Below are positions 107 through 49,422 of a stretch of DNA of 64,000 bases, piece by piece. This stretch comes from an uncultured Selenomonadales bacterium. GTDB lineage: Bacteria; Bacillota; Negativicutes; Selenomonadales; Selenomonadaceae. How positions within the stretch are numbered: the first letter of the stretch is position 1; each line of letters begins with the position of its first letter. Where the stretch lies: assembly GCA_900315155.1 (NCBI GenBank), contig OMYB01000012.1:1-64000 (forward strand), read 5' to 3'. A model generated the notes under the pieces. That model made no database searches. It had not been told where the DNA came from and worked only from the letters and a program-made list of their open reading frames with translations. The translations under genes were made by a program, and so were the position numbers.

Positions 107-465
107 ACACGTTCAGGATAAAAGCGATAGATATCGCCGTTTGCCAGTAAAGTGTCCATGTGGTCAAGGAAACGAATCCGGTTGCGGATATAGCCATACT
201 GGCGTTTATCCATAGCCTTGAGACTTTTCAAGGTGATTTTGCCGTCGTGGATGCGATTATAGCCTTTGAGGCCGAGAAAGGGGCGTTCCCTGGTAATATG
301 CTGGATGCCGATGAGATGGCAAAAGGCTTCGCGGTAGAAATACACTTTGACGGTTTTGTTGTTCGCCAGGTGGTAAGCAAAGTAACGGTCACAGAGTGCC
401 GAGTTGTAGTAATCTTGCAGTTCCTTCAGCGTGAGCATGGGCAGGAAAACCTCGCAATCGTACAA
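94..465 (-). CDS. PBECR4-like (Barnase/EndoU/ColicinE5/RelE-fold) domain protein
   Basis: A 123-residue protein resembling the PBECR4 family (phage Barnase-EndoU-ColicinE5/D-RelE-like putative nucleases). The recognisable core is residues 26-60: a tyrosine-rich strand followed by NNKTVKVYFYREAFCHLIGI, where the His-Leu-Ile/Leu-Gly segment after a charged strand is typical. The Lys/Arg-rich C-terminal half (KSLKAMDKRQYGYIRNRIRF) fits a nucleic-acid binding surface. The start is TTG at 465 with no visible Shine-Dalgarno. The frame stays open upstream through a hairpin, so the true start is uncertain. Such domains are common in phage and mobile contexts as toxin-like RNases, and the type I restriction remnants next door fit an accessory location. 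Family call is from pattern recognition; nuclease activity is inference. No antitoxin gene is visible beside it. Confidence 0.6.
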   Translation of the reverse strand: MYDCEVFLPMLTLKELQDYYNSALCDRYFAYHLANNKTVKVYFYREAFCHLIGIQHITRERPFLGLKGYNRIHDGKITLKSLKAMDKRQYGYIRNRIRFLDHMDTLLANGDIYRFYPERVQPL

Positions 466-34710: not shown

Positions 34711-35012
34711 TCACCAAGACAAATCGAAGAGCAAGGAATAGTAACATATCCCGCCCCTGCCCAGCGAGCTCGTGACCGGCACAGCCGGAGGTGGAATGAC
34801 GAGCGAGGGAGAATATGCGAATGGACTTGTGAGAGCCCACAGAAAGGCCGTAGGCTGAGTAGGATGGGACGGCTGCCCCCGTTACAGGGCTGGGATATCG
34901 GAGCTATGTTCCCGTATCCGACGAGTGCACTGCACGATGCAGTGAAGACGGGTGGCAACACGAAGGAGAATCTTCGCCCCGGCAGAGAACTGTTTCTCTG
35001 CCGGGGCTTTTA
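34711..35012 (+). promoter_or_regulatory. T-box riboswitch (tRNA-Trp) upstream of trpF
   Basis: A complete T-box leader. AGTA motif in AATAGTAAC (about 34738), distal stem I loop around CCGGAGGTGGAA (34785-34796), and specifier in GAATGGAC with TGG, the Trp codon, at 34822-34824. The T-box bulge is in GGGTGGCAACACG; TGGC (34953-34956) matches a tRNA with discriminator G, as tRNA-Trp has. A strong terminator (GCCCCGGCAGAGA/TCTCTGCCGGGGC, 34976-35007, then TTTTAT) ends it. Uncharged tRNA-Trp should favour antitermination and trp expression. Confidence 0.92.
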
Positions 35013-41143: not shown

Positions 41144-42451
41144 TCAGCGGAGCAACGATAAGAACCACGCAGAGTTCTGGTTGTTCTGTGCGAGCATGGC
41201 CATGGCCGCCTGCATGAGTACGTTTTCTTTCGTGTAAGCCAGCATCTCTTTGGCGAGGTCGGCGTCCATGAGCGTGGACATGGCGCTCGTGAGGTTCGTG
41301 CTTTCCGTCGTGAGGTTCTGACTCGTATACTCCAGGCGCGAGGAGATGGCCCCGATGGTCGTGGACTGGTCGAGTGCGCGGTTTAATGCGTTATCCAGAA
41401 CCTCGATCGCGGCGTTGGCTCCTTCGCGCGTGGTGACGTCCAGGACGTGGCCGTCGCGGCCACGCAGACCGAGTGCCGTCGCGCGCATATCGCCGATACC
41501 GATCTTAATGCCAAAATTGGCGTCGGCACCGGTCTGCGCGTAGAGTGCCGTATCTCCCATCGCGTTTCGCGCCTGGATGGTTTCCGTAAAACTGTTGAGT
41601 ACGTTGTTGGCGCTTTTCTTTGCCTGCCCTTTCAAATTCGTAATGCCGATGGCGAAACCGCCGAGCGCAGCGTCCGTGCCGGTGGCACTCGCCTTGACCG
41701 TAATAGCGTTTTTGTTGTCCACCGTCGTCTTCATCTCGCCGTCAGCGTCCACGCCGATCTTGTCGGTCGAGCTGGAGCCCTTGAGGTCAAACGCATCCCC
41801 GGAGACCTCATTCATCTTCTTGAAGAGATCGCCGAGCGTAGCGTCCTTGGCGGAGAAATGCGCCGTGTAGGTGCGCCCATCCTTGACGTACGAAGCGGTT
41901 ACGGTATCCGTATCCACGATGCCGAGGGAGTCCCCATCGCGCCGCGTGAGATCGGTGAGCTTGGTGTCGAGCGTCACATTTTCTCCGAGGCTCCTGTTCG
42001 TGAAAGCCTGCTGAGTCGCATGTGCTACGCCCGCGTGGGAGCCGTCCAGCAGGGATTTCCCGTTGTAGGTGATGAGGGCGTTATCGTCGATCTGATCGAC
42101 GTACTGGTCGAACAGCTTTTGGATAGTGCGGCGGTCCTGATCCGTCGCGGTATCGTTCGCCGCTTCAATGGCCTTTTCCTTCAGCGTCTTTATCAGGTCA
42201 ATCGTCGAACTGATGCCGCCGTCCGCCACCTGCAGCAGCTTTCCCATTGTCTGCGTGTTGCTGTTCGCCTGATCCAGCGCGCGGATCCGTACATCCATGC
42301 GCTGCCCAATCGCCCATCCTGACGGATCGTCCACTACCGAATTAATACGCCGTCCCGATGCGATTCGCTGCATGTGCTTTGCCATGGCAGCGGAGTGCTG
42401 ATTCATGATGTTCAGGATGTGCGTAGACATGACAAAAGAATTTACGTACAT
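41144..42451 (-). CDS. Divergent flagellin
   Basis: A 435-residue flagellin. The conserved N-terminal D0/D1 helix contains HMQRIASGRRINSVVDDPSGWAIGQRM, and the C-terminal D1/D0 contains ISSRLEYTSQNLTTESTNLTSAMSTLMDADLAKEMLAYTKENVLMQAAMAMLAQNNQN. The central region (about 180-330) is variable. It diverges from typical flagellins at the first 25 residues (MYVNSFVMSTHILNIMNQHSA) and in PSGWAI for AAGLAI. GGAGG lies seven bases before the ATG. No other flagellar gene is in the window, so it is an orphan, probably minor, filament protein. Confidence 0.92.
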   Translation of the reverse strand: MYVNSFVMSTHILNIMNQHSAAMAKHMQRIASGRRINSVVDDPSGWAIGQRMDVRIRALDQANSNTQTMGKLLQVADGGISSTIDLIKTLKEKAIEAANDTATDQDRRTIQKLFDQYVDQIDDNALITYNGKSLLDGSHAGVAHATQQAFTNRSLGENVTLDTKLTDLTRRDGDSLGIVDTDTVTASYVKDGRTYTAHFSAKDATLGDLFKKMNEVSGDAFDLKGSSSTDKIGVDADGEMKTTVDNKNAITVKASATGTDAALGGFAIGITNLKGQAKKSANNVLNSFTETIQARNAMGDTALYAQTGADANFGIKIGIGDMRATALGLRGRDGHVLDVTTREGANAAIEVLDNALNRALDQSTTIGAISSRLEYTSQNLTTESTNLTSAMSTLMDADLAKEMLAYTKENVLMQAAMAMLAQNNQNSAWFLSLLR

Positions 42452-42563: not shown

Positions 42564-42607
42564 TTGTATACTTCATCAATTTATACTATAATTGATTATA
42601 GTATAAT
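42564..42607 (+). promoter_or_regulatory. Promoter with perfect 11-bp palindromic operator
   Basis: TTGTAT (42564-42569) and TATAAT (42587-42592) are 17 bp apart; a second TATAAT is at 42602-42607. Perfect inverted arms TATACTATAAT (42582-42592) and ATTATAGTATA (42595-42605) cover both -10 boxes, with TG at the centre. This is a strong candidate operator for the ATPase gene that follows. Confidence 0.7.
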
Positions 42608-42642
42608 GCATTAACCTTTATGTGTCGCGGAGGGGGCATATT

Positions 42643-44022
42643 ATGCAGTTCATAGCGAGGGACGAAGAACTACGGCGGTTGGAGCGCAAGCTGTCTAGTG
42701 ACCGTTCAGAGAATATCCTGATTTACGGCAGACGGCGCGTCGGAAAAAGTGAATTGGTGCGGGAGGCCATTCGTCGAACAGAGTGTGTGACGGTGCAGTA
42801 TGTCGGTATTAAGGCTCCCCTTCAGCAGAATGTGCAGGGGTTATCAACAGCCGTTGCTGAGGCTTTTCAGGAGCCTTGGGTGAGATTCGCCAATTTGCAG
42901 GATGTTCTGCTGTATGTATATCAAAAGGCGCAAAAGCAGAGAGTCATCCTTTTTCTTGACGAGTATCCTTTTTTCCGTAACGATGACGAAGCTGTGGATT
43001 CCGCGTTGCAGGTGGCGATAGACAGCTATCAGCATGATGCCTGCCTCAAACTGATTTTATGCGGTTCCTATATGGATACGATGCAAAAGATCATCGAAGG
43101 TGGGGCACCGCTGTTTGGCCGCTTTGCGGAAATCATGCAGCTGCGCCCGATGGATTATTACGATGCGGCCAAATTTTACCCAAATCGCACGGACGAGGAA
43201 AAGGTGTTTCTATACAGCATCTTTGGCGGTATGCCGTTTTATTTATCTTTGCTGGATGATACGTTGTCCCCGGAAGATAATGTTGCGGAGCTTTTGCTGC
43301 GTGAAGGGTCAATCCTGGAAAATGAAGTACGGCTGCAGGTGACGGCGGAGCTCTCTAAAGAGGAAAACGCGAACGTGGTGCTGGATGCGATCGCTGCGGG
43401 TGCAACGAAATACGCGGACATCAGCCAGCATTTTCCGGGCAAAAATAACTCCAAAATGAATTATGCCCTGAATAAACTCATCGGGATGGGCTTGGTAGCT
43501 AAGGGCTCGCCCATCAACAAGGTAACGGATAACAAGAAACAACGTTATACCATTACCGATAACCTGCTGGATTTTTATTATACCTACCTGTTTCGCGAAG
43601 GAGCAGCCCGTGGTGCATTGACTGCACAACAATTTTACGACCGCATCCGGGAGTTGGTGGAAACGCAGTATGTACCGCGCAAGTTTGAGCAGATTACGCA
43701 AGAGTATCTACTGCGTCAAAACCGTACCAATAAAATCGACCCTCCTTTTTTTGCGATTGGTCGATTCCTTTATCATGATAAGGAAAAACATGCTAATGGC
43801 GAATTTGATGTGGTGACCGCCGATGAACGGGGGTATATTGCTTACGAGTGCAAATATCGTCAGGAACCGGTCAGCATGGCCACAGTCAGACGAGAGGAGT
43901 GGCAGGCCAGGGAACTGGGGTTGAATTTTTATCGCTACGGATTTGTATCGCGCAGCGGTTTTACCGATGATGTCGATCCGGAAAAATATATTTTGCTGAC
44001 CCTGGCTGATCTGTATGCATAA
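42643..44022 (+). CDS. AAA ATPase with C-terminal DUF234/PD-(D/E)XK-like nuclease domain
   Basis: A 459-residue protein of the archaeal-type ATPase/DUF234 group. The P-loop is GRRRVGKS (29-36) and Walker B is VILFLDE (101-107). A winged-helix region lies around 245-300 (KYADISQHF, NYALNKLIGMGLV). The C-terminal domain shows a PD-(D/E)XK-type pattern, Asp389, Glu402 and Lys404 (EFDVV...YECKY). The start ATG 43-base numbering is 42643, after GGAGGGGG; GTG 42622 is less likely. Codon use is more AT-rich than neighbours, suggesting horizontal acquisition. Members are often orphan genes of unknown role. Nuclease activity is inference. Confidence 0.88.
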   Translation: MQFIARDEELRRLERKLSSDRSENILIYGRRRVGKSELVREAIRRTECVTVQYVGIKAPLQQNVQGLSTAVAEAFQEPWVRFANLQDVLLYVYQKAQKQRVILFLDEYPFFRNDDEAVDSALQVAIDSYQHDACLKLILCGSYMDTMQKIIEGGAPLFGRFAEIMQLRPMDYYDAAKFYPNRTDEEKVFLYSIFGGMPFYLSLLDDTLSPEDNVAELLLREGSILENEVRLQVTAELSKEENANVVLDAIAAGATKYADISQHFPGKNNSKMNYALNKLIGMGLVAKGSPINKVTDNKKQRYTITDNLLDFYYTYLFREGAARGALTAQQFYDRIRELVETQYVPRKFEQITQEYLLRQNRTNKIDPPFFAIGRFLYHDKEKHANGEFDVVTADERGYIAYECKYRQEPVSMATVRREEWQARELGLNFYRYGFVSRSGFTDDVDPEKYILLTLADLYA

Positions 44023-44030
44023 AACGCAAG

Positions 44031-45122
44031 TTATGCCTTGATGGCCCAGCGCAGTTTCGTGGAGTGGGCGCGGCTGTTGCGGTAGCATTCTTCTTTGCTC
44101 GGGCGGATGACGTCTTTGGCGATGGCGCGGTAGAGGCCTTGCTGGTGGTAGGCTTTGAAGGCCTGTTTTACGATGCGGTCTTCGCCGGAGTGGAACGTGA
44201 GGATCGCGGCGCGGCCGCCGGGGGCGAGGGCGTACGGCAGTTTTTCCATAAATTCATACAGCACTTCATATTCGTGATTGACATCGATACGCAGGGCCTG
44301 AAAGACGCGGGCGCTGCTTTTTTTGATGAGCTGGGCACGGGCGGCCGCCTGGCGCTTCGTGCTGTAGCCGGCAACAGACTGCATGTCTGGCGGCAGGGGG
44401 ACGTTTTCGAGCGCGCGCGTGACGGCCTCGTGCAGGGCCGTGGTCGTCTCGATGGGCTGGCGGCGCTCCGTGCGCATGATTTCGCGTGCGATCTGCGCGG
44501 CGTAGGGTTCGTCGGCGTTCGTCTGCAGGAGTCCCGTGAGCTCGTCCTTATCGAGCTCGCGCAGGCGTTCGGCGGCAGAGATGCCGGCCTCGGGGTTCAG
44601 GCGCAGGTCGAGCGGGCCGTCTGCCTTGTAGCTGAAACCGCGCGCGGGATTGTCGATCTGCATGGAGGATACGCCGAGGTCGGCGAGGACGAAGTCAAAG
44701 GGTCCCACCTCGGCAGCCAGCTCGTCAATCTGACAGAAATTCATTTGGCGACGTTCCCATAACGCGGGGCCGTATCCTTTCGCGCGGATGCGTTCCTCCG
44801 TCTTGGCGGATTCTATGGGATCGACATCGCCACCGATGAGATGGCCGCGTCCCTGCAGGGCCTCCAGCATTTTGAGCGTATGTCCGCCATAGCCCAGTGT
44901 CGCATCGAATCCCTTTTCGCCGGGCTGGATCTGCAGTACGTTCAGGATTTCGTCGACCATGATGGGGATGTGCATGCCGGCTGGCGTGTTGCCCTTCGCG
45001 AGGACATGCGCGACTTCCTCGCCGTATTTTTCCGGCTGCAGTTCCTTATATTTCTCTTCAAAGCGTTTCGGGTAATGCCCGCTGTAATGTACGCGTCGTT
45101 TGTGTGGCTTCTGTTCGTCCAT
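44031..45122 (-). CDS. rsmH: RsmH/MraW-family rRNA methyltransferase (extended paralog)
   Basis: A SAM-dependent methyltransferase of the 16S rRNA C1402 N4 (RsmH/MraW) family: HIPIMVDEILNVL, DATLGYGGHTLKML, ADLGVSSMQIDNPARGFSYKADGPLDLR, LTFHSGEDRIVKQAF and NSRAHSTKLR. At 363 residues it is about 50 longer than usual, mainly from a basic N-terminal extension (KPHKRRVHYSGHYPKRFEEKYKELQ). It is not in the division-cell-wall cluster but ends a tatA-MFS operon, so it may be a paralog with a different target. AAGGAG precedes the ATG by eight bases. Confidence 0.88.
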   Translation of the reverse strand: MDEQKPHKRRVHYSGHYPKRFEEKYKELQPEKYGEEVAHVLAKGNTPAGMHIPIMVDEILNVLQIQPGEKGFDATLGYGGHTLKMLEALQGRGHLIGGDVDPIESAKTEERIRAKGYGPALWERRQMNFCQIDELAAEVGPFDFVLADLGVSSMQIDNPARGFSYKADGPLDLRLNPEAGISAAERLRELDKDELTGLLQTNADEPYAAQIAREIMRTERRQPIETTTALHEAVTRALENVPLPPDMQSVAGYSTKRQAAARAQLIKKSSARVFQALRIDVNHEYEVLYEFMEKLPYALAPGGRAAILTFHSGEDRIVKQAFKAYHQQGLYRAIAKDVIRPSKEECYRNSRAHSTKLRWAIKA

Positions 45123-49383: not shown

Positions 49384-49422
49384 AAAAAGGCGCCTGCCGA
49401 CAAGATCGGCAGGCGCCTTTGT
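49384..49422. terminator. Bidirectional terminator between clpB and deacetylase
   Basis: AAAAAGGCGCCTGCCGA pairs with TCGGCAGGCGCCTTT around CAAGA; a very stable stem between convergent genes. Confidence 0.88.

Follow-up and report, generated by a model that had tools for sequence, protein, structure and literature searches.

Operator-like promoter arrays of PDC-S27 ATPase-nuclease genes and their covariation with the winged helix of the encoded proteins

Described relatives of the window protein

The closest described relatives of the gene studied here are the PDC-S27 ATPases. In the available text of PMC12988326, 3503 PDC-S27 were counted in archaea and 4562 in bacteria, and the family has its status as a candidate defence system from guilt-by-embedding; the available text contains no mention of a winged helix, promoter, operator, autoregulation or repression. 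We found no description of 15-bp promoter arrays or of autoregulation in PDC-S27 in the open PMC literature, a body of text that has preprints and most subscription papers outside it, and nothing there on function under COG1672 or the Pfam accessions. Nor did we find a trigger, substrate or ligand described for these ATPases. The window, by which we mean the whole 64-kb stretch of DNA that was analysed, carries a full-length gene of this family with a product of 459 aa. Its features are as follows.

42643..44022, plus strand: PDC-S27 ATPase-nuclease gene (Pfam ATPase_2 and DUF234; PADLOC PDC-S27)
42643..43257, plus strand: nucleotide-binding AAA/STAND-type ATPase domain, residues 1-205 (Pfam, AlphaFold model, fold search)
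42727-42750, plus strand: Walker A GRRRVGKS, residues 29-36 (sequence)
43360..43554, plus strand: winged helix, residues 240-304 (AlphaFold model)
43447..43485, plus strand: recognition helix, residues 269-281, NSKMNYALNKLIG (AlphaFold model; helix similarity tracks operator sequence)
43753..44019, plus strand: PD-(D/E)XK (DUF234) nuclease domain, residues 371-459 (Pfam, alignments, alpha/beta in the AlphaFold model)
43807-43809, 43846-43848 and 43852-43854, plus strand: nuclease motif codons D389, E402 and K404 (sequence)

The ATPase_2 (PF01637) and DUF234 (PF03008) domains score 62.1 and 45.9 bits in Pfam against cut-offs of 33.2 and 22.5, and the PADLOC profile PDLC04984 (PDC-S27) matches at E 3.4e-45, with residues 2-422 of the protein aligned to profile positions 3-429 of 474. 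The window protein shares with PDC-S27 the full-length profile match, the two domains encoded by a single gene, and the patchy occurrence in bacteria and archaea. PDC-S27 already stands among the candidate antiviral families, so the protein itself is not new but another member. What differs is the 15-bp array and its connection with the winged helix, neither of which is mentioned in the available text of PMC12988326.

The AlphaFold model (mean pLDDT 95.8, pTM 0.92, 78 sequences) contains a long helical segment at residues 320-361, and the sequence of the ATPase domain includes a DE106-107 motif. In the nuclease domain, D389 is invariant and E402 and K404 are at least 90% conserved in the homologue alignments (A1 and A2). 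The D and the E-x-K lie on adjacent strands of the model (384-394 and 397-404), the arrangement of the PD-(D/E)XK superfamily. The sequence supports a reading of the protein as an ATPase fused to a predicted PD-(D/E)XK nuclease with its catalytic motifs intact. A preliminary description of this locus had correctly read the P-loop ATPase, the winged helix and the Asp389-Glu402-Lys404 constellation, and had called the gene AT-richer, which agrees with a GC content of 48.6% in the gene and 36.6% in the intergenic region, against 57.9% in the whole window.

Since a phmmer comparison with PDB sequences gave weak matches only (best 2qen, E 0.008), relatives had to be sought by fold. Two archaeal Walker-type ATPases rank first, 2qen (PABY2304) with Z 23.5 over 294 residues and 2fna (SSO1545) with Z 23.0 over 291, but the match stops near residue 315 and leaves the nuclease uncovered. 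All fold matches, including those to NLR and Orc1/Cdc6 proteins, span residue 1 to about 320 and are of little help for the nuclease. The fold search finds the NBD-helical-winged-helix fold of STAND NTPases, in the layout seen in the NLR-type proteins plant RPP1 (Z 17.4) and CED-4 (Z 15.7). The corresponding winged helix of NLR-type STAND proteins serves as an internal switch, so the one here may not be free for DNA binding in every state. What sets the window protein apart from the STAND/NLR proteins is its predicted nuclease effector and a winged helix that would recognise a specific operator. Archaeal Orc1/Cdc6, which recognises arrayed DNA sites, has the same AAA and winged helix fold (Z 15.9 for 1w5t and 15.8 for DNA-bound 2qby_A), whereas the window protein has an extra nuclease and the arrays lie in the promoter. 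Membership among the Orc1/Cdc6 initiators was rejected, with NCBIfam TIGR02928 at 13.6 bits against a cut-off of 181.3. According to the available text of PMC4599002, the NB-ARC domain of potato Rx1 binds and bends DNA.

Regulation of their own locus is described, in the parts of the literature available, for BrxR, for AbiEi (via inverted repeats) and for RepA of repABC. A separate regulator or antitoxin is responsible there, whereas here reader and nuclease would be one polypeptide. The sister ATPase-PD-(D/E)XK family PDC-S01 (AAA_14 and DUF4143) also has promoters with repeats.

Arrays at the promoter of the window gene and across the family

The following elements precede the gene.

42564..42569, plus strand: -35 element TTGTAT (TTG invariant in six aligned orthologous upstreams)
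42587..42592, plus strand: -10 element TATAAT, 17 nt after the -35 element (TA..AT invariant in six aligned orthologous upstreams)
42579..42608, no strand: putative operator array of four alternating half-sites, holding the palindrome 42581-42606 and a 15-bp direct repeat (array score)
42629..42637, plus strand: ribosome-binding site GGAGGGGGC before ATG 42643 (sequence)

The palindrome consists of TTATACTATAAT at 42581-42592 and ATTATAGTATAA at 42595-42606, separated by a spacer of 2 nt. The inverted repeat in the preliminary description is therefore real and perfect, but its arms measure 12 nt instead of 11. Perfect inverted repeats with arms of at least 11 and spacers of at most 6 occur at four places in the window, against 0-2 in each of 20 dinucleotide shuffles of the window (16 with none), and 2000 shuffles of the 191-nt intergenic region produced a single one with such a repeat. 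The other three places (471-498, 34976-35007 and 49386-49420) are probably terminators. The same description had placed two -10 boxes in the palindrome: TATAAT at 42587-42592 is conserved in the aligned upstreams, which comprise the window and five of its seven closest orthologues (L007 and L035 left out), but the second box, 42602-42607, copies a half-site. From dyads at 42586 and 42601, the half-sites read TATAAAT, TATAATT, TATAATC and TATAATG in the outward direction. The array scores 12.8 against a control 99th percentile of 11.2, and a 24-base pattern of it has no second occurrence in the 2.49-Mb genome, which speaks against a wide regulon. We prefer ATG 42643, behind GGAGGGGG, as the start; the listed GTG 42622 is less likely. 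The gene does not lie between convergent blocks as had been proposed: with flagellin (41144-42451) and rsmH (44031-45122) both encoded on the minus strand, it diverges from the former and converges with the latter.

Across the family, we took the 100 nt before 173 homologues, dropping upstreams that were shorter or contained N before counting; 154 were left after filtering out those with shared 8-mers, or 153 if counted by locus, since L063 holds two genes. The controls were 301 upstreams of neighbour genes, with a GC content of 0.44 against 0.32 for the homologue upstreams, and array scoring uses the base frequencies of each sequence itself. The median of the best inverted-repeat score is 10 for the 173 homologues, against 5 far upstream of these genes and 5 in the controls. 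Direct repeats, defined by 9 of 10 positions matching at a given lag, are found at lag 15 in 68/154 homologue upstreams (44%) and in 1% of the controls. Lags 14 and 16 are represented by 1/154 each, and a second peak stands at lag 30 (10/154). By place, the lag-15 repeat occurs in 68/153 upstreams and 1/152 far-upstream sequences, and is absent from downstream sequence (0/152) and from coding sequence (0/153) of the homologues. Spacings between dyad centres peak at 7.5, 15 and 22.5 bp. The arrays are thus described by half-sites of about 7 bp that follow each other every 7.5 bp in alternating orientation, which gives rise to the 15-bp direct repeat; up to 6 half-sites per array were observed.

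The lattice array score exceeds the control 95th percentile in 104/153 homologues and the 99th in 84/153. The respective proportions are 57/76 and 47/76 in the family and class of the window, and 47/77 and 37/77 on GTDB contigs of many phyla, a part of the set that consists of the best 80 loci among the matches listed by a scan with one motif pattern. The median array lies at -56 to -22 relative to the start codon. The position of TATAAT-like boxes and the aligned orthologous upstreams place these operator-like arrays over their own promoter: such a box is found inside the array or at most 12 nt 5' of it in 87 of the 104, with a peak at the left end. Array scores fall below the control 95th percentile in 49/153 homologues. 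Only three of the seven closest orthologues pass (L033, L034 and L037), and the own-genome paralogue L002 fails, although dyads are visible by eye among these failing sequences; the case for the array rests on the family and not on the seven closest orthologues. No array was found by score at L113 (Sutterella), L028 and L098, and the divergent viral-contig relatives L234-L242 have other arrays or none. A 56%-identical copy in a genus mate (L024, G002:C13) is broken, with residues ~132-263 missing between its two pieces, and keeps a clear dyad array upstream.

The sequence of the half-site varies by locus (for example ATAATCG, ATACTCG, ATAGTCG, TAAATCA, TGAATCA and TCGGTTT), even among paralogues of one genome (L001, L003 and L004). 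The preliminary description would have been contradicted by a palindrome not conserved with homologues; spacing and place are conserved, but sequence is not.

A held-out set was built from 70 further loci among the phylum matches listed, which yielded 69 genes, 64 of them absent from the first set and 43 with nonredundant upstreams. Direct repeats occur at lag 15 in 17 of these 43, at lag 14 in one and at lag 16 in none, and array scores exceed the 95th percentile in 26/43 and the 99th in 19/43. A plasmid sample comprised 12 members out of 30 listed matches (of 153 plasmid records in total), nine of them haloarchaeal. With thresholds set on upstreams of other genomes, the haloarchaeal upstreams pass the 95th percentile in 9/9 and the 99th in 7/9 cases. 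One of the haloarchaeal members, on Natronococcus occultus plasmid 2 (L250), has lag-15 and lag-30 repeats upstream and lies between two orc1/cdc6 genes.

The DUF4143 family (PDC-S01) is a negative control where the 15-bp lag is concerned, though its promoters do have repeats with different spacing. We scored 28 of 30 loci (L184-L213), with start codons guessed from the distance to Walker A, some of which may be wrong. The 15-bp lag appears in one true case of the 28 full N-free upstreams, and some have direct repeats at lags 32-33 instead; inverted-repeat scores of at least 9 are reached in 10/28 upstreams against 12/150 controls. An example of a PDC-S01 promoter repeat is TTTCGGCTATAAT...GCCGAAA. 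As PDC-S01 promoters have repeats of their own, self-addressed promoters may extend beyond PDC-S27 among such ATPases.

Covariation of the recognition helix with the half-sites

Covariation was analysed in 103 proteins with arrays above the 95th percentile, giving 5219 pairs below 75% identity; L029, which contains a masked stretch (X), was left out. Among the top 100 by column-wise mutual information, 35 lie in the winged helix, where 16.5 were expected; but this measure was noisy, giving high ranks to conserved columns (E9 and L247, for example), and a window scan took its place. The scan relates operator similarity to similarity in each 11-aa window, given the similarity of the remaining protein (partial correlation). 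This differs from a phylogenetic model: related proteins share history, and phylogeny is only partly controlled.

The windows of the whole protein that best track the operator are 271-281 and 268-278 (partial r 0.30), against a mean of 0.015 and an sd of 0.094 for all 11-aa windows. The best segment, 268-281, coincides with the recognition helix 269-281 of the AlphaFold model, and the tracking by 269-281 was reached in 0/200 label permutations. The whole ATPase has a partial r of 0.02 and the nuclease of -0.14. The recognition-helix signal persists below 40% identity and without the TCGG group; in pairs below 32% identity it is equalled by the ATPase window 162-172. The held-out set again puts 268-278 first, with r 0.33 below 75% identity, against 0.28 for the highest window outside the winged helix, and 0.31 below 40%. 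Held-out pairs below 32% identity give close values for windows 243-253 (0.33) and 268-278 (0.32).

Single residues follow the half-site to different degrees. Tyr275 is present in 63 of the 103 proteins, and half-site position 5 is T in 56 of those; the combination is found in 24/25 held-out cases, and the haloarchaeal plasmid members have Tyr275 in 9/9 and T5 in 8/9. His274 goes with A at position 4 in 10/10 cases, and Lys274 with C at this position in only 19/30, or 10/15 in the held-out set; a Rhodothermus member (L246) has Lys274 and C4 together. The covariation is strong, with phylogeny only partly controlled, and the sequence of the operator may be determined by the gene's own protein. 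An earlier guess, that the winged helix binds its own operator, receives strong computational support from the family-wide arrays and from the helix covariation in two sets.

Probable self-recognition, rival explanations and possible use

We consider it probable that the single-gene PDC-S27 ATPase-nuclease recognises its own operator array and represses its own gene. The array, its spacing, its position at the promoter, the covariation of helix and operator and the intact ATPase and nuclease motifs are computed; from them we infer physical binding, repression (not activation), cooperativity and a biological use. Half-sites of ~7 bp recur every 7.5 bp (a 15-bp repeat, ~1.4 helical turns) over the -10 and start region; subunits of the protein would occupy them through their winged helices, probably cooperatively and in a row, and would block RNA polymerase once bound. 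The tight repression of the preliminary description would likewise be read from the position of the operator. Half-site sequences would be lineage-specific and depend on residues of the recognition helix, 274 and 275 among them, so that paralogues in one cell need not cross-regulate. A self-endangering nuclease would be held low until a trigger, possibly phage, which would change the state of the ATPase, free the operator and release the nuclease.

The protein could also bind its array as an activator, assembly or cleavage site, like the origin boxes of Orc1/Cdc6. The fold close to DNA-bound Orc1/Cdc6 (2qby_A, Z 15.8), the arrays of up to 6 half-sites, the haloarchaeal member between two orc1/cdc6 genes and the predicted nuclease would all fit. 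We nevertheless regard this as unlikely: TATAAT-like boxes peak at the left end of the array, so that the bound protein would cover the promoter, and arrays are absent downstream and in coding sequence. Far less probable still is that the dyads are RNA hairpins in the leader, acting in attenuation or mRNA control. Repeats of exactly 15 bp and dyad steps of 7.5 bp, with no drift to 14 or 16, behave as a DNA-helix ruler, because the spacing in an RNA loop would not stay fixed; many arrays extend over the -10 element and hence over untranscribed DNA; and the half-sites covary with a DNA-recognition helix. These points stand against two that favour hairpins: the transcript would begin close to the inverted repeats, and in orthologues part of the array lies downstream of the probable start site. 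We give just as little credence to a separate host regulator as the reader of the arrays. Dedicated regulators are common at defence loci in the available literature (BrxR, AbiEi), but the half-site differs between loci and between the paralogues L001, L003 and L004, it tracks the helix of the PDC-S27 protein itself, and the annotated neighbours of 12 plasmid loci vary from locus to locus.

Another alternative concerns the use of the system and not its operator. The case for a candidate role in defence is built on the published status of PDC-S27 and its patchy distribution: matches occur in 55/189 genomes of the window's taxonomic family and in 92/398 genomes of an even phylum sample, several of them weak or partial, and members are found on 153 plasmid records, 7 phage records and at 17 viral-contig loci. 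In a genus mate (G002, L221:1-990), fragments of a PDC-S01 gene and a type I hsdS (specificity subunit) gene lie beside rsmH, and two other genus mates have different genes there. The site thus differs in each genus mate examined and is variable, possibly a defence hotspot adjoining rsmH (44031-45122 in the window). Nevertheless the patchiness, the plasmid and phage records, the candidate status by guilt-by-embedding and the pieces at rsmH would fit a selfish element almost as well, and an antiviral test of PDC-S27 was not found in the published text as available. That the gene is a selfish or house-keeping regulator, with the nuclease acting elsewhere, is accordingly a serious possibility, if not the one we favour.

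The genome of the window contains five DUF234 genes; the fifth (G000:C25:70954-71850; L005, L102) matches only from query residue 134 on and is probably N-terminally truncated. A PDC-S27 member on Selenomonas ruminantium plasmid pSRC2 (L251, 29338-30729) carries the annotation ATP--cob(I)alamin adenosyltransferase, apparently in error.

Returning to self-recognition with autorepression, we add a tentative extension that we would not expect to hold in full. The winged helix known as the NLR switch would be the address reader of its own promoter, and operator release and nuclease activation would be one conformational event, in a STAND/Orc-like family that crosses domains. One polypeptide would therefore combine sensing, gene control and effector, and the operator could be predicted from the protein by a residue-to-base code at helix positions 274 and 275.

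With the protein already known as a member of a candidate antiviral family, the promoter array is the surprise. PDC-S27 ATPases are abundant and each member now has a predicted DNA ligand, which makes the family directly testable from sequence alone; promoter-reporters could reveal what activates the PDC-S27 system. If true, self-recognition would provide a prokaryotic STAND-type winged helix that reads a specific DNA site, with relevance to DNA binding by the plant NLR Rx1.
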